From: Verrucomicrobiia bacterium
GTDB lineage: Bacteria; Verrucomicrobiota; Verrucomicrobiia; Verrucomicrobiales; Akkermansiaceae
Direction: 5' to 3'
DNA: 64,000 nucleotides
Assembly: GCA_030431475.1 (NCBI GenBank)
Contig: JAUIJD010000004.1
Coordinates: 1 to 64,000 of the forward strand
In this document: piece by piece, positions 28,508 to 36,719 of the stretch
Position numbering within the stretch: the first letter of the stretch is position 1
Layout of the letters: each line of letters starts with the position of its first letter
The notes under the pieces: generated by a model
Database searches by the model: none
What the model was told of the DNA's origin: nothing
Seen by the model: the letters and a program-made list of their open reading frames with translations, nothing else
Position numbers and translations under genes: made by a program

Positions 28508-29461
28508 ATGGCAGACGACCCCGCCCCCCAGCCATCCCAGCCGCGACGCCATCGTCCGCGGCTCAGCGAATTGTCTCGCGAGACCACCGAAGACGACCTC
28601 TGGGATCTGGACAACGATGCGGGAGTGCCCCCGGAAGAACCGTCGGATGCGGACGAACCGGCCGACACCGGAGCCACCACCCCACCGGTGGTGGACGAGC
28701 CGCCGGACGAGCCCTCCCCGGCCGAATCGGAGACGGACGAAGCTCCGGAGCCCGCCGCCGAAGAGGAAGCCGAGTCGTCGACGGAGGCCTCCGAACCGGA
28801 GCCGGCCGCCGAAGCGCCCGAGGAGGAACCGGCCGCCGCCCCCTCCGAGGCGCCGACACCGGACGTCGCACCGGCTCCCACGAAGCCGGAGGCGAAATCC
28901 CCGGCGACCCTCCCCCCTCCCAACCCGCGGGAGAAGATCAGCCTCGCGGTGATGGCCGTCATCTTCCTCGGACTCGCGATCTGGTGGTTCGTCGGTCTCT
29001 TTTCCGACGTCGCCACGGAACGTCTCGGGTCCGACCTTCCCGACTTCCCGATTGAAGGCAACCACGGCGAGGTCGCGAGCGCCTCGACCTTCTGGCGGAC
29101 GCCGATCCGCGAGGGAGAAGGTCGCGACGTGGCCCGTGCCGATGTCTCCCACCTGCCGGTCGTCACCCTCCGGCTCAATGGCGGGAGTGGCGCCTTGCGC
29201 GCGATCTTCCGCACCGACCGCGGCGACTTCGTCGGCGACAGCATCACCCGCACCTTCGAGAACGGCCGCTTCGTGGACAACGGGTCGAACACCATGGACT
29301 TCCCCGCCACCGATGGTTTCGAGACCGACGGCGAATACAACGGTTACCGGGTCGGCCGCGAACGCTGGACGGTCGAAATCCTCGAGGGCCCGGCCGCCAA
29401 TGCCGCCGGCAGCAGTTTCCGATCCCTCTTCACCACGCCGATTTCCCCCGAGCGCCGCTGA
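28508..29461 (+). CDS. Hypothetical single-pass membrane protein with acidic Pro/Glu-rich N-terminal region
   Basis: Low-complexity E/P/A segment ~28620-28900, TM KISLAVMAVIFLGLAIWWFVGLF, uncharacterised C-terminal domain. Confidence 0.7.
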   Translation: MADDPAPQPSQPRRHRPRLSELSRETTEDDLWDLDNDAGVPPEEPSDADEPADTGATTPPVVDEPPDEPSPAESETDEAPEPAAEEEAESSTEASEPEPAAEAPEEEPAAAPSEAPTPDVAPAPTKPEAKSPATLPPPNPREKISLAVMAVIFLGLAIWWFVGLFSDVATERLGSDLPDFPIEGNHGEVASASTFWRTPIREGEGRDVARADVSHLPVVTLRLNGGSGALRAIFRTDRGDFVGDSITRTFENGRFVDNGSNTMDFPATDGFETDGEYNGYRVGRERWTVEILEGPAANAAGSSFRSLFTTPISPERR

Positions 29462-30314: not shown

Positions 30315-31499
30315 TTACTCGCCGATCGATCCCATTTCGCGATCGAGCCGCTTGAGGAAACGGCTCATCTCCTCCAGGTGGTTGCGAAGGCGCCCGGCGG
30401 ACCGGGGATTCATCGGCACGGCCTGGGCGCCGGCACGGGCTCCCTGGACTCCCCCCTCCTGCGGCAACTGGGCCAAGGTCGGATCGATGGGCTCCTGCGC
30501 GAGCATGGCCTGGAGATGGGCCGCGGGCAGGACGAAGCTCCGGGTCCGGTCGGTGCGGGCGATGGTCATGCCGATCACCTCGCCGTCGAGGTCCACGACC
30601 GGCCCACCGCACTCGCGCGGCTTGAGCTGCATGTCGGTCTGCAGCGCCATCGGAAATCCATCTCCCACCAGGCTGATCGGTCCGCCCATCCGCCGCATCG
30701 TCCGCAGGCGTCCCTCGGGGATGCCGGGAAACTCGGGACGACCGGTCAGCAGCACCCGGGCCGTCCCCGAGTCGTCGCGACGTCGGTACGTGACCCCAAT
30801 CTCATCGCCCGGTGAGTAGTTGAGCAGGGCATTGCGAAGCTCGAAGGGACTCGTCACCGATTTCCCGTCGACCTCCAGAATCACATCTCCTTTCCGCAGG
30901 TTCGCCTCCCGCGCCCCTCCATCCGGGGAAGTTTCCAGGATTTTGACGCCCTCGCCATCGAACGACGGGTCCAGCGTGATCCCGATGAAGGCCTGGTCGG
31001 AGTCCCGCAGCGTGCGCTCGGCGACCGCCACGACGCCGATGCCCAGCGGACTGTTCGCATCGGCATTGGCAGCCACCAGGAAGCGCCCGAGGTCCGGCGT
31101 GGGATCGATCGACCACCTCACGGGTGTGAAGCGCGCCCCCTCCAGTTGCAGCAGGGCGACGTCGTCATCCTTGTAAACTCCAAGCACCGTCGCCGTCGCG
31201 GTCCTCCGGTCGCCGCCCACGACCTGCACCGGAGTGCGCGAAAAGGCGATCTCGCTCCACTTCGTCAGGACCTTGTCGCCATCGCCGACCACCGTCCCCA
31301 TCGCGACCTGACGCTGGTCCGCCCACACCCACACGGTCGATGCCGAGGCACCGCGGGCCACCGGCCGGATCACGTCGAACACCTCCCGCGACTGAAGCCG
31401 GGTGGCCTCGCGCTCCTCGGCCCGCTGCAGCGGCACATCCTGAGCCGCCAGCCCACCGGCCAGCACCATCAACATCACGATCGATCGCATTCCCTTCAT
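30315..31499 (-). CDS. HtrA-like (trypsin-fold) protein with internal PDZ domain; catalytic residues not conserved
   Basis: MKGMRSIVMLMVLAGGLAAQ signal peptide; VGDGDKVLTKWSEI, YKDDDVALLQL, PDZ IGITLDPSFDGEGVKILETSPDGGAREANLRKGDVILEVDGKSVTS, then KPRECGGPVVDLDGEVIGM. Confidence 0.75.
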   Translation of the reverse strand: MKGMRSIVMLMVLAGGLAAQDVPLQRAEEREATRLQSREVFDVIRPVARGASASTVWVWADQRQVAMGTVVGDGDKVLTKWSEIAFSRTPVQVVGGDRRTATATVLGVYKDDDVALLQLEGARFTPVRWSIDPTPDLGRFLVAANADANSPLGIGVVAVAERTLRDSDQAFIGITLDPSFDGEGVKILETSPDGGAREANLRKGDVILEVDGKSVTSPFELRNALLNYSPGDEIGVTYRRRDDSGTARVLLTGRPEFPGIPEGRLRTMRRMGGPISLVGDGFPMALQTDMQLKPRECGGPVVDLDGEVIGMTIARTDRTRSFVLPAAHLQAMLAQEPIDPTLAQLPQEGGVQGARAGAQAVPMNPRSAGRLRNHLEEMSRFLKRLDREMGSIGE

Positions 31500-32494
31500 C
31501 GTTTCAATTCCTCCGCAAGTTGATCCATCCGCATGAGTTCCAGCGACAACTCGGTCATCTCGCGCCCCCGCTGGAGCCCGATCTTCACGGTGTCGCCCGC
31601 CGAATACTTCGCCAGCAGCATGCCGAGGCTCCGCCCGCCGCGCACGCGCTCTCCATCCACACTCCGGATGATGTCGCCGGGGCGGATGCCTGCCTTGGCC
31701 GCCGGAGAGCGGGGCGTCACCTGCTCGACCGGGACGCCGCCGTCGCGCAATTCCCGCCCCATCATGATCCCGATCACCGGCCGCTCCGGATTCGTGAGCG
31801 GGTTGAGCTGGAGTTCGCCCCAGCTCTCGCCCGCGAGCATCCGCTTCCAATCCTCCTTGAAGCCGTCGATCCCGGCGTGGTTGTTGTTGTCGAGGGTCTC
31901 GCCGATGGACGAGTTGATCCCCACCAGCTTTCCCTCGAGGTCGAAGAGCGGACCGCCGGAGTCGCCGCCGATCAGCGTGCAGTCGGTGGTCATGAAGTTC
32001 CCCGGCCCCTCGGAAACCACCCGGCCGAAGCGGACCGGCGGTGTCCGCGCCGGGTCGTAGCCCTCGCTGTGCCCCATCGCGATCACCCAATCGCCGGCCT
32101 TGAGGGTTCCGGACTCGCCGAGGGCCACGTGTGGCCAGGGCCCGTCGTCGACGATCCGGGCCATCCCGGCGTCCTTCGAGTAGTTCGACCCCAGCACCTT
32201 GGCCTGCGTCTGCTTGCCGTCGGGAAACACGATATCGACCTCCTCCGCCCCGTCCGTCACGTGCGCCGCGGTCAGGATCAGCCCTTCCTCGTCGACGATC
32301 ACTCCCGAGCCCGAGGCCCCGGTGGCACTGGAGATGATCGCCACCGTTGCCGGCATCACCTGCTTGACCACGGCGGTCGTGCGGGTTTCGAGTGCCGCCA
32401 GGTCCTGCAGGGAGGTCACCGACTCCCGCGCGGCCAGCGGCCCCATCAGCAGCGCCGAAAGGCCGATCCCTTGCAAAATTCCGGATATCTTCAT
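31496..32494 (-). CDS. HtrA/DegP-like trypsin-fold serine protease with C-terminal PDZ
   Basis: ASGSGVIVDEEGLILTAAHVTDG, SKDAGMARI, TLIGGDSGGPLFDLEGKLVGIN, PDZ PAAKAGIRPGDIIRSVDGERV. Confidence 0.9.
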   Translation of the reverse strand: MKISGILQGIGLSALLMGPLAARESVTSLQDLAALETRTTAVVKQVMPATVAIISSATGASGSGVIVDEEGLILTAAHVTDGAEEVDIVFPDGKQTQAKVLGSNYSKDAGMARIVDDGPWPHVALGESGTLKAGDWVIAMGHSEGYDPARTPPVRFGRVVSEGPGNFMTTDCTLIGGDSGGPLFDLEGKLVGINSSIGETLDNNNHAGIDGFKEDWKRMLAGESWGELQLNPLTNPERPVIGIMMGRELRDGGVPVEQVTPRSPAAKAGIRPGDIIRSVDGERVRGGRSLGMLLAKYSAGDTVKIGLQRGREMTELSLELMRMDQLAEELKR

Positions 32495-32595: not shown

Positions 32596-34971
32596 ATGCC
32601 GAAACGCAATTCGAAGGCCGCTTCTCGGAACGAGAAACGCGGCTCCAAACGCCGGAAATCCCCGCCCAAGCGGCGTGGATTCGGCACCATCCTCCTGTTC
32701 TGGCCGCTGCTGCTTTTCGGTCGGCTGACCGCCTCGCTGCCCGGCGCCGTCCGCTGGCCGCTGCGGCTTTTCGGCTATCCGGCGCTGCTCGCCCTCTACG
32801 CGCTCGTCCCTCTTTCCGTGTTCTACTACGCGCGGGCGCGGAATTTCGACATGGCGAAGGTCGAGGAAATGCCCGAGCGCAGCGTGGTCCTCGATCGCCG
32901 GGGCCGCGAGCTGGGCCGCATCCACGGCGAGAAGCGCGACATCATCGACTTCTCCCAGATCGACCAGGATTTCATCTACGCGATCCTCGCCCGGGAGGAC
33001 GAACGCTTCTTCAAGCACCACGGGATCGACTGGATCGGCTTCGGCCGGGCGACGCTGCGGAACGTCAGCGACCGGCAGTTCAAGGAAGGGGCCTCCACCC
33101 TGACGATGCAGCTGGCCCGCAACAGCTACAACCTCTACGCCCCGTGGCTCAGCTTCTCCGACACCCTCCAGGAGATCGACCGCAAGTTTCTCGAAATGGC
33201 GGTGTCCTACCGCATCGAGTCGAACTACTCGAAAGAGGAGATCCTCGAGCACTACGTGAACCGGATCTTCTGGGGACACACGATCCGGGGCATCGAGGAG
33301 GCCGCGCGCACCTACTACGAGAAGTCGGCCAGCGACCTCAGCCTCTCGGAGGCGGCGCTGCTGGCGGGCATCGTCCGCGGGCCGAACGCCTTCTCGCCCT
33401 TCAAGGACCTGTCGGACGCCCTGCGCGAGCGGAACTCGACGCTGGACCGGATGGTCGTGGCCGATTTCATCAGCGCCGACGAGGCGGAGGCGGCCAAGGC
33501 CGAGGAGATCGAGGTTCGCCCCGAGTGGCGCCGGGTGCTCCACGACAGCTGGGCGATGGACGCCGTGCGACGTGAACTCGAGCGCATTCTCGAGGAGGAG
33601 GACATCGAGTTCGGAGGCCTGCAGATCACCACCACCATCGACTCGCTGGTGCAGAAGCGGGCGGAAGACGCCCTCAACAGCCACCTCCGCAGCATCGAGC
33701 GACGCCGTGGCTACCCCCACCAGACCCGCGCCGCCTGGCAGGAGCTCCCGGAGCCCCGGCCGGTGCCGAAGTACCTGCAGGGCAGCGTGGTGGTCATCGA
33801 GAACCTCACCGGCGCCGTCGTCGCGACCGTCGGCGGTCGGGATCCCGACGAATCGAAGTTCAACCGCGCCACCCAGGCGAAGCGCCAGGTCGGCTCGACC
33901 TTCAAGCCCTTCGTCTACCTCTCGGCCTTCGACGCCGGGCTGCGGCCCGACATGCTGATCAGCGACAACCCGCTCAACCCCGGCGAGGTCAAGGGTGCCG
34001 GCCGCTGGTCCCCGTCAAACTCCGACGGCGAGTTCAACGGCTTCCAGTCGGCCTCCTACGGGCTGATCCGGTCGCGCAACACCATGTCGGTGCGGGTCGG
34101 CAACTATGCCGGCATCGACAAGGTCGCCGAGCTCGCCGAGGACGTCGGTTTCAAGCAGCCACTCGGTCGCGACCCGACCTCCTACCTCGGCACCATCGAG
34201 GCCTCGCCCGAGGAGGTCGCCTCGGCCTACACGATCTTTCCGAACGGCGGCCAGCGCTTCCCGCCCCGCATCATCTCCGAAATCCGCGACCGCAACGGCG
34301 AAGTCCAGTACAGCAACCCGCGCATCTCCTACCAGGCCTGCGGTCATGGCGCGGCGTGGACCACCTCCAAGATCCTCGGCGAAGTGATCGACCGGGGCAC
34401 CGGCGCCTCGGTCCGACGGCTCGGATTCTCCAAGCCCTGCGGCGGCAAGACCGGCACCACCAACGACTACAAGGACGCCTGGTTCGCCGGCTTCACCTCC
34501 AGCCTGACCTGCGCCGTGTGGGTGGGATTCGACCAGCCGAAGAAGACCATCGACCGCGGCTACGGGTCGGTGCTGGCGCTCCCGGTGTGGACCGAGGTGA
34601 TGAAGACCGCCGACCGGCTCGGGTATCAATCCGAAGGCCTGCGATCGCAGCTCTCCTTCACCGAGGTCCGGCTCTGCCGGGTCTCTGGAAAGCGCGCCAC
34701 CGAGGGCTGCGAGGCGGCCGGTGAGGCCTACACCGACAGCGTCCCGCGCGACCTGCTGCCGGCCAGGAACGCCGTCTGCACCGACCACGAGGGCACTCCT
34801 TCCGTCACCGGCGGCAAGCCACCGAAGGCGACCCCCATCGAGCCCGGCGCCGCCCCGCGCGCCGAGCCGGTGACGCCCGCGACGCCCAGGGCCATCCCCG
34901 TCGAACCCACCCGCCCCCCGCGGGCCCAGCCGGTCGAGGAACCGGTGCGGCGGGCGATCCCCGTCGAATAG
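32596..34971 (+). CDS. Class A penicillin-binding protein (GT51 plus transpeptidase)
   Basis: REDERFFKHHGIDWIGFGRA; EGASTLTMQLARNSY; transpeptidase QVGSTFKPF, RSRNTMSV, CGGKTGTTNDYKD. Confidence 0.94.
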   Translation: MPKRNSKAASRNEKRGSKRRKSPPKRRGFGTILLFWPLLLFGRLTASLPGAVRWPLRLFGYPALLALYALVPLSVFYYARARNFDMAKVEEMPERSVVLDRRGRELGRIHGEKRDIIDFSQIDQDFIYAILAREDERFFKHHGIDWIGFGRATLRNVSDRQFKEGASTLTMQLARNSYNLYAPWLSFSDTLQEIDRKFLEMAVSYRIESNYSKEEILEHYVNRIFWGHTIRGIEEAARTYYEKSASDLSLSEAALLAGIVRGPNAFSPFKDLSDALRERNSTLDRMVVADFISADEAEAAKAEEIEVRPEWRRVLHDSWAMDAVRRELERILEEEDIEFGGLQITTTIDSLVQKRAEDALNSHLRSIERRRGYPHQTRAAWQELPEPRPVPKYLQGSVVVIENLTGAVVATVGGRDPDESKFNRATQAKRQVGSTFKPFVYLSAFDAGLRPDMLISDNPLNPGEVKGAGRWSPSNSDGEFNGFQSASYGLIRSRNTMSVRVGNYAGIDKVAELAEDVGFKQPLGRDPTSYLGTIEASPEEVASAYTIFPNGGQRFPPRIISEIRDRNGEVQYSNPRISYQACGHGAAWTTSKILGEVIDRGTGASVRRLGFSKPCGGKTGTTNDYKDAWFAGFTSSLTCAVWVGFDQPKKTIDRGYGSVLALPVWTEVMKTADRLGYQSEGLRSQLSFTEVRLCRVSGKRATEGCEAAGEAYTDSVPRDLLPARNAVCTDHEGTPSVTGGKPPKATPIEPGAAPRAEPVTPATPRAIPVEPTRPPRAQPVEEPVRRAIPVE

Positions 34972-35009: not shown

Positions 35010-36719
35010 GTGTCCACCTGGCGCCCCGTCTCCCGATTTCCCCGCTGGCTTTCCTGGCTGCCGGATTGGTTGCACGCGCCCCTGCGATGGACCCTCCGGG
35101 TCCTGATCGTGCTCGCGATCGCCTTCGCCGCGGTCGCCTTCTACTACATGATGCAGGCCGGGAAGTACGACCTCGACAAGGTCGCCGAACTCCCGGCCCG
35201 GACGACCATCCTCGACCGGAAGGGCATCGCCATCGAGGTCGGCTGGGGCGCCTCCCGGCACCTCGCCCGACGGCAGGACCTCCCCGACTTCCTGATCAGC
35301 TCCCTCGAAGCGCGCGAGGACGCCCGCTTTTTCAGCCACCACGGCGTCGACTTCCGGGGCCTCGCCCGCGCCACCGTGCGCAACCTCAAGGACCGGGATT
35401 TCACGCAGGGGGCCTCCACCCTGACGATGCAGCTCGCCCGCAACACCTACGACATGCGGGCCAAGTCCATCCACCGCAAGCTGCTTGAGATCGCCCTCAC
35501 GCTGCGCATCGAAGGACGCTACTCGAAGGACGAGATCCTCACCCACTACCTCAACCGCATCTACTTCGGGGCCGGGTGCCACGGCATCGAGGAGGCCTCC
35601 CGGACGTATTTCGGCAAGTCGGTGGCCGAACTCCACGAAGGCGAGTGCGCGATGCTCGTCGGGATCATCCGCGGTCCCCATCTGTTCTCGCCGGCCCGCA
35701 ACCTCGAGGGGGCGCGGGCGCAGCAGTCCGAGGTCCTCGACCGCCTGATCGCCATGGGCCGCATCGACCCCGCCGGAAAGAAGCGGATCGAGCAGCTTCC
35801 GATCAAGGTCGTGCCCGAGGAACAGCGCAGCCCCGATCGCTCCTACGCGCTCCAGGCGGTCCGCGAGGAACTCGGCACCCTCCTCGAGGCCCACGACATC
35901 CGCGCCGACGGTCTCATCGTCCACACGACCCTCGACCGCGGCTGGCAGCTGCGTCTCGAATCCGACCTTTCGAAGGCCCTGCTCGCGGTCGAGAAGGGCG
36001 AGTCGTGGGACCATCCGGTCCACGCCGGTCACGAGCCCGGCACCACGCCACGCTACGTGCAGTTCGCCGCGGTCACGCTCGAATCCGAAACCGGCGAGGT
36101 GCTCGCCTGGATCGGCGGGCGCGACTTCCTCGACTCGCGCTTCGATCGTGCCAGCGGTGCCCGCCGCGACCTCGGCACCTCGATCGAACCGTGGATCGCC
36201 GCCGCCGCCGCCGAGCGCGGCAAGCGCGTCCTCCCGGGCAAGCCTCTTCTCACCGGCCGGCAGGTCGGCCCTCTCGAAACCGCCCGCATCGCCAAGCGCT
36301 GCGGCCTCGGCGGGCCGTTCCTCGACACCGAGGACCTCTTCCGCGGCAGCGCCGCCGCGACCCCGGAGGAAGCCGCCAACGCCCTCGCCACACTCGCCAA
36401 CGGCGGCAAGCGCCCCATTTCCTACTTCATCCGCCGCATCACCGATGCCGACGGCGGCGAGCTGTATCGACGGGACCCGGAGCGCTCCCAGGCGATCAGC
36501 CGCCATGCCGCGGAGCGGGGCGCCGACCTGTTCCGTCAGGTCGGCAGCAGCCGCTGCTTCCACGGCGCGACCGGATCCGACCGCGATGCCTGGCTGCTGC
36601 GCATCGGGCCCAGCGGCTCCACCGCCATCTGGATCGGCTTCGACGACCCCGTCGCCATGGCGGACGGACCGGTGATCGAGGGGCTCCTCGACGATCTCGA
36701 GACCCGCCTCGGGGACTGA
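35010..36719 (+). CDS. Class A PBP-like protein: intact GT51 glycosyltransferase, degenerate transpeptidase
   Basis: EAREDARFFSHHGVDFRGLARA; QGASTLTMQLARNTYDMRAKSIHRKLLEI; transpeptidase region DLGTSIEPW and FHGATGSDRDAW. GTG start. Confidence 0.88.
   Translation: MSTWRPVSRFPRWLSWLPDWLHAPLRWTLRVLIVLAIAFAAVAFYYMMQAGKYDLDKVAELPARTTILDRKGIAIEVGWGASRHLARRQDLPDFLISSLEAREDARFFSHHGVDFRGLARATVRNLKDRDFTQGASTLTMQLARNTYDMRAKSIHRKLLEIALTLRIEGRYSKDEILTHYLNRIYFGAGCHGIEEASRTYFGKSVAELHEGECAMLVGIIRGPHLFSPARNLEGARAQQSEVLDRLIAMGRIDPAGKKRIEQLPIKVVPEEQRSPDRSYALQAVREELGTLLEAHDIRADGLIVHTTLDRGWQLRLESDLSKALLAVEKGESWDHPVHAGHEPGTTPRYVQFAAVTLESETGEVLAWIGGRDFLDSRFDRASGARRDLGTSIEPWIAAAAAERGKRVLPGKPLLTGRQVGPLETARIAKRCGLGGPFLDTEDLFRGSAAATPEEAANALATLANGGKRPISYFIRRITDADGGELYRRDPERSQAISRHAAERGADLFRQVGSSRCFHGATGSDRDAWLLRIGPSGSTAIWIGFDDPVAMADGPVIEGLLDDLETRLGD

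Follow-up and report, generated by a model that had tools for sequence, protein, structure and literature searches.

The HtrA/Deg peptidases (S1C) DegS, DegP and DegQ, like HTRA1-3, have a trypsin-like fold with an intact triad and a C-terminal PDZ, and a relay from PDZ through loop L3 to loop LD runs across their subunits. In DegS and DegP, L3 passes the occupancy of the PDZ on to the LD of the neighbouring protomer and orders the active site there. We analyzed a stretch of 64,000 nucleotides from a Verrucomicrobiia bacterium (contig JAUIJD010000004.1, positions 1 to 64,000; hereafter the window) in which the gene of a canonical HtrA, P0002, is directly followed by that of P0001, a protein of the same fold that has lost the triad and whose PDZ appears to sit within L3. 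The two genes represent a conserved two-part module made of an HtrA and a nested-PDZ pseudoprotease, a partnership that is well supported.

Several described systems resemble this module in part. Plant DEG7, with which yeast Nma111p is grouped as a comparable system, is a single eukaryotic chain with an active protease domain (PD) and an inactive one (PDia) in the order PD-PDZ-PDZ-PDia-PDZ-PDZ, the PDZs following the dead domain. In the window, by contrast, there are two genes; a single chain of this kind occurs in 18 homologues, and these natural fusions (L045, L079, L105 and others) resemble DEG7. In AtDeg7, the inactive protease domain serves trimerisation (PMC3473262). MamO has an HtrA fold with a degenerate triad and promotes MamE-dependent proteolysis via its C-terminal transporter domain, while its protease domain binds metal (PMC4794232). 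The likeness lies in a dead HtrA, which arose by duplication and loss and promotes an active paralogue of the same system; here too a degenerate-triad HtrA is encoded with an active one. Unlike P0001, MamO has no PDZ nested in its protease domain. P0001 scores 13.8 bits against the NCBIfam MamO model (cut-off 800), and a Pfam scan found no transporter or further domain on it. In Arabidopsis, the PDZ-less Deg5 works with the PDZ-bearing Deg8 (PMC3640471), which recalls the pairs described below whose active HtrA lacks a PDZ, but the triad residues are still present in Deg5, and Deg8 carries its PDZ at the C-terminus. By the features tested, the module belongs to neither MamE/MamO nor DEG7. A 2008 survey of prokaryotic serine proteases described PDZs tethered C-terminally to trypsin domains (PMC2605481), and our searches of the open literature (subscription papers not covered) turned up no account of an HtrA whose protease domain encloses a PDZ. 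The novelty of the nested-PDZ HtrA pairing is thus provisional.

Domain layout and active site of P0001

An earlier note, made by reading the sequence, placed an HtrA-like pseudoprotease at 30315-31499, right after a canonical HtrA. These coordinates are right, and the gene lies on the minus strand, with its ATG at 31499, its stop ending at 30315 and 394 amino acids (aa) between them. It overlaps the P0002 gene by the 4 bp ATGA (31496-31499), as the note had said. The segments it quoted are all in the translation: LTKWSEI at residues 78-84, KDDDVALLQL at 110-119, and RECGGPVVDLDGEVIGM at 295-311.

The note also held that the PDZ lies inside the protease domain instead of C-terminal to it, and proposed a structure prediction. 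Pfam places PDZ_2 at residues 171-250 (E 1.7e-12) and matches Trypsin_2 (E 5.2e-10) in two stretches, of which the reported one reaches residue 311, beyond the PDZ. We modelled the mature protein with AlphaFold2 (AF2) from an alignment of 53 sequences (the protein and 52 homologues), with a predicted local distance difference test (pLDDT) of 89.9 and a predicted template modelling score (pTM) of 0.77. Its strands run in the order barrel 1, first strands of barrel 2 (ending at residue 162), complete PDZ, helix, remaining strands of barrel 2 including the Cys site, and C-terminal helix. The two methods agree and support a PDZ nested in the second barrel of the modelled protein, between the Asp and Ser sites; a tandem arrangement was rejected on both. 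The best Foldseek match of the model is DegS 6ew9 (E 4.3e-15) and the others are also HtrA structures, with query-normalised TM-scores of 0.27-0.37, which are low because the domain order of P0001 differs from theirs. P0001 is HtrA-derived by fold, having a trypsin-like double beta-barrel related to DegP/DegS according to Pfam, AF2 and Foldseek. It falls outside the S1C peptidase definition in that it lacks both the His-Asp-Ser triad and a PDZ C-terminal to the protease domain. Its features are as follows.

30315-31499, minus: nested-PDZ HtrA pseudoprotease P0001, 394 aa (open reading frame, ORF, and translation; Pfam PDZ_2 and Trypsin_2; AF2; 119 unique family members)
31440-31499, minus: putative Sec signal peptide, residues 1-20, MKGMRSIVMLMVLAGGLAAQ (read by eye)
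31344-31421, minus: long N-terminal helix ahead of barrel 1, residues 27-52 (AF2 secondary structure)
31110-31343, minus: N-terminal beta-barrel of the trypsin-like domain, residues 53-130 (AF2; alignment to DegP/DegQ)
31251-31265, minus: degenerate His site T-K-W-S-E, residues 79-83 (family counts, n=114)
31161-31163, minus: Asp113, equivalent of the catalytic Asp (Asp in 114/114)
31014-31043, minus: strand preceding loop L3, residues 153-162, ending in Arg162 at the DegS Arg178 position (alignment by hidden Markov model, HMM, with DegP/DegQ; DSSP; family counts)
30741-30995, minus: PDZ inside loop L3, residues 169-253, with carboxylate-loop motif F-I-G-I (Pfam 171-250; AF2; motif conservation)
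30501-30740, minus: second part of the C-terminal barrel, residues 254-333 (AF2; phmmer to HTRA3/DegP-like chains)
30600-30614, minus: degenerate Ser motif E-C-G-G-P, residues 296-300 (family counts, n=114)
30546-30563, minus: family-specific I-A-R-x-x-R motif, residues 313-318 (R315 in 110/114, R318 in 113/114)
30324-30407, minus: C-terminal helix, residues 365-392 (AF2)

Residues were counted over 114 unique full-length family members. The sequence T-K-x-S-E stands in place of the His site: the catalytic position holds Ser in 111 members and His in none, and a Lys two residues ahead of it (K80) is present in all 114. The catalytic Asp (Asp113) is kept in 114/114. At the nucleophile position we found Cys in 69 members, Ala in 17, Met in 11, Ile in 5, Val and Ser in 4 each, Thr in 2, and Asn and Leu in one each. 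The Ser to Cys change singled out by the earlier note is therefore real in P0001 but does not define the family; ECGGP, whose conservation it suggested checking, is not a conserved motif, and the Cys seems incidental, one of several tolerated residues. The hallmarks of the family are instead T-K-x-S-E, Arg162 (109/114), Gln287 (109/114), Asp289 and I-A-R-x-x-R. The absence of His and the variable nucleophile site uphold the label of pseudoprotease, and judging by sequence the nested-PDZ family is proteolytically dead. That the Asp is invariant although the enzyme is dead suggests a salt bridge of structural importance, possibly to K80. One could take the frequent Cys and the invariant Asp113 as signs of a divergent cysteine protease with a rearranged but still catalytic site. 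However, chymotrypsin-fold cysteine proteases have a conserved Cys nucleophile and a His base, which this family does not. The base position never holds His, 39 members with the other family features intact have Ala, Met, Ile, Val, Asn or Leu at the nucleophile position, and the invariance of the Asp may instead reflect a bond to the invariant K80. We rejected this candidate on the variable nucleophile site and the missing His, and give it almost no chance of being right.

Pairing with the adjacent HtrA and spread of the family

The unusual architecture holds, but it is not that of a lone odd gene: it recurs in 119 unique genes, which rules out a sequencing or annotation artefact, and P0001 is one half of the module. 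An HtrA lies directly upstream on the same strand in 96 of the 119, and in 18 the pseudoprotease is fused to the HtrA, 17 times C-terminal to it and once in the opposite order (L130). Two of the genes lie at contig edges, so that the 96 adjacent and 18 fused cases are out of 117 with sequence context. In L130 (G321:C24), a frame of 637 aa, the nested pseudoprotease is N-terminal and the active HtrA C-terminal.

The pairing is reciprocal. Among 388 genomes of the phylum, 69 of the 70 nested hits co-locate with a partner-type HtrA. When the partner HtrA family was used as the query on the same genomes, all but one of the hits above the 185-bit line co-locate with a nested gene. The exception is G078, in which the two genes are on different contigs. 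The source genome has three pairs (3:3), one of them fused, plus one unpaired DegP-like gene. The distances within the two families are correlated (Mantel r 0.866 over 87 unique pairs, permutation maximum 0.10), which is partly due to shared species history. For this reason, a functional unit is better supported by the matching of like with like among paralogous pairs, by the occurrence of fusions in both orders and by the reciprocity.

It is very probable that the pseudoprotease is an obligate partner subunit of the adjacent HtrA. It might alternatively be an independent periplasmic chaperone or adaptor whose linkage to HtrA merely reflects ancestry by tandem duplication, given that both proteins are HtrA-derived and that three nested genes stand alone. 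Near-universal reciprocal pairing, fusions of several lineages in both orders and like-with-like paralogues are unexpected from inertia alone, and we regard such an independent protein as very unlikely.

A search found matches in 91 of 97 related genomes, some of which are, at that threshold, ordinary PDZ or HtrA proteins. Within the phylum, full-length nested homologues occur throughout the order Verrucomicrobiales and in one other family; outside it they occur in Planctomycetota (Gemmataceae, Isosphaera, others). The contig scan over 84,980 species, made with one peptide pattern, retrieved 59 loci, all titled Verrucomicrobiota or Planctomycetota, which does not prove the family absent from other groups. 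About a tenth of the sampled Verrucomicrobiota genomes have a match (37/388). A full-length match is found in about 35 of 294 Planctomycetota genomes, and a genome often has several copies of the module. A second Planctomycetota group has matching pieces within frames of ~970 aa. In L142-L144, the three Planctomycetota frames of this length that were read, the HtrA and two PDZs are followed by a dead domain with two tandem PDZs inserted. L133 (G014:C5) has a 548-aa frame in which a PDZ-less HtrA is fused to a dead domain without nested PDZ that keeps TKAS and IARLSR. L3 thus holds no (L133), one or two (L142-L144) PDZs while the dead barrel persists. L133 is a derived or intermediate form, and since it keeps TKAS and the IARxxR residues without a PDZ, the function of these residues probably lies with the partner and not with the PDZ. 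A tree of PDZ domains gave no information on the origin of the nested PDZ. In handling the fusions, a combined alignment with HtrA and nested proteins misplaced the nested rows and was discarded in favor of one of fusions plus nested proteins.

Loop L3 and a proposed division of labor

The features of the partner are given first.

31496-32494, minus: P0002, canonical HtrA with C-terminal PDZ, 332 aa, intact triad, 4-bp overlap with the P0001 gene (ORF, Pfam, family counts)
31958-31960, minus: catalytic Ser179 of P0002, in GGDSGGP (Ser in 116/116 partners)
31997-32008, minus: loop L3 of P0002, apparently cut to a 4-residue turn G-P-G-N (AF2/DSSP of the natural fusion L079; same sequence in P0002)

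The triad of P0002 is His78/Asp108/Ser179, in the motifs AAHV, KDAG and GGDSGGP. Over 116 partner HtrAs, the His is present in 115 (with one gap) and the Asp and Ser in all. Sec-like signal sequences stand at the start of both P0001 and P0002 (by eye, no predictor).

In DegS, L3 comprises residues 176-189 and includes Arg178. When a peptide binds the PDZ, L3 is freed and Arg178 touches LD' of the neighbouring subunit; Gln191 is part of the same activation cluster (PMC11642142). In a MAFFT alignment of the nested cores with Deg proteins, the L3 region came out misaligned, so HMM alignments and DSSP were used instead. By HMM alignment, the nested strand ending in Arg162 falls on GIVSALGR of DegP/DegQ, which is the position of DegS Arg178. 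Q287 stands at the position of Gln191. Because the PDZ directly follows the Arg162 strand, its insertion point is L3 itself. The active partner seems to differ. In the AF2 model of L079 (721 aa, pLDDT 83.4, pTM 0.75), DSSP assigns the active half one unbroken strand, V-R-F-G-R-V-V-S-D, which the turn G-P-G-N joins to the next strand, so that its L3 looks reduced to a turn without an equivalent of Arg178. At the Gln191 position, partners mostly have Thr or some other residue, though the alignment that shows this is unreliable immediately before that position. Ten pairs have an active HtrA without detectable PDZ (four in one genus of the same family, six fusions), and their only PDZ is hence in the pseudoprotease.

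On balance, we favor the reading of the dead HtrA paralogue as a non-catalytic sensor or activator subunit of the upstream HtrA. P0001 would be a secreted regulatory subunit that lost catalysis together with the His and a fixed nucleophile and kept the fold as a protein-protein module. Its PDZ, inserted in L3, would presumably bind a C-terminal peptide or an unfolded envelope protein. It is the pseudoprotease that retains the arginine of L3, whereas the active subunit has apparently dispensed with its L3 and, in some lineages, with its PDZ as well; for these reasons we take the L3 of the pseudoprotease as the possible switch. A ligand on the nested PDZ would reposition this loop against the active subunit, which may then be switched on, or have its substrate positioned. 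These features suggest a split in which the dead subunit took over sensing, with the PDZ and the L3 arginine, and the live subunit retained catalysis. The in-trans route through L3 and Arg162 is put forward tentatively. So is, with the same reserve, the idea of a widespread two-component HtrA system in Verrucomicrobiota and Planctomycetota: an active HtrA with minimal L3, sometimes PDZ-less, would receive the activating arginine in trans from a dead HtrA that bears the PDZ sensor in its L3.

Several points weigh against this reading. The physical contact between HtrA and pseudoprotease is one that we infer, and since HtrA trimers are C3, a mixed ring of active and dead subunits needs a special stoichiometry. 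Most partners retain their own PDZ, and three nested genes (L123, L157, L158) have no HtrA nearby. The HtrA half of the L079 model was covered by three sequences only. Finally, when the partner is aligned to DegP by HMM, its R-F-G-R pairs with A-L-G-R, and the partner would then still have an arginine in L3; the register given by DSSP speaks against this, yet the strand register of the partner is not beyond doubt.

The dead domain could instead be a structural scaffold that only assembles or tethers the active HtrA, with the nested PDZ recruiting substrate without allosteric relay. AtDeg7, with one active and one inactive protease domain, the latter acting in trimerisation, offers a precedent (PMC3473262); the fusions of several lineages and the one reversed order fit tethering, and L133 retains the dead barrel without any PDZ. 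A mere tether would need neither an insertion exactly in L3 nor R162 and Q287 of the DegS activation cluster (109/114 each), and we consider a pure scaffold rather unlikely. The dead subunit could also be an inhibitor or decoy that poisons or caps HtrA oligomers until a PDZ ligand relieves it. The unliganded PDZ of DegS is indeed inhibitory (PMC11642142), and strict 1:1 gene pairing fits a dedicated regulator. But 18 fusions in cis suit a working subunit better than a simple poison, which makes inhibition improbable in our eyes, with the caveat that activation and relief of inhibition are not separated by direct evidence.

Genomic context and significance

The pair in the window is divergent from a class A penicillin-binding protein (PBP), PBP1A (32596-34971, plus), and convergent with hemQ. 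The divergent class A PBP is kept in many loci, including distant Akkermansiaceae. A conserved protein without Pfam match (28508-29461, plus) lies beside hemQ and the HtrA pair in loci of the same genus. The C-terminus of PBP1A (34700-34971, plus) consists of repeats [RKL]A.P[VI][DEN] with the tail ...RAIPVE in the window; in most orthologues the repeats, such as PRAIPVE, reach or nearly reach the C-terminus, and similar coding motifs elsewhere in the genome number 13, against 3 in a reversed control. This tail is a possible candidate ligand of the PDZ. The second class A PBP (35010-36719, plus), next to the first, has a degenerate transpeptidase in the window and in all 10 relatives checked: SxxK is changed to [TAE]xx[ET], the SxN region is deleted and KTGT has become xTGS. 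PBP1A keeps all three motifs where covered. By their motifs, the two PBPs look like another pair of active and dead enzymes, divergent from the HtrA pair.

How PDZs switch HtrA proteins is debated in DegS and DegP, where sensor and catalyst share identical subunits. In the module described here, evolution has apparently given sensing and catalysis to separate chains and built the PDZ directly into the relay loop. If this is true, effects in cis and in trans could be tested by clean genetics, with a naturally dead subunit as the sensor. Considering its spread across both phyla, often in several copies per genome, and its position divergent from a peptidoglycan synthase in the window, the module may represent an important uncharacterised system of envelope quality control.
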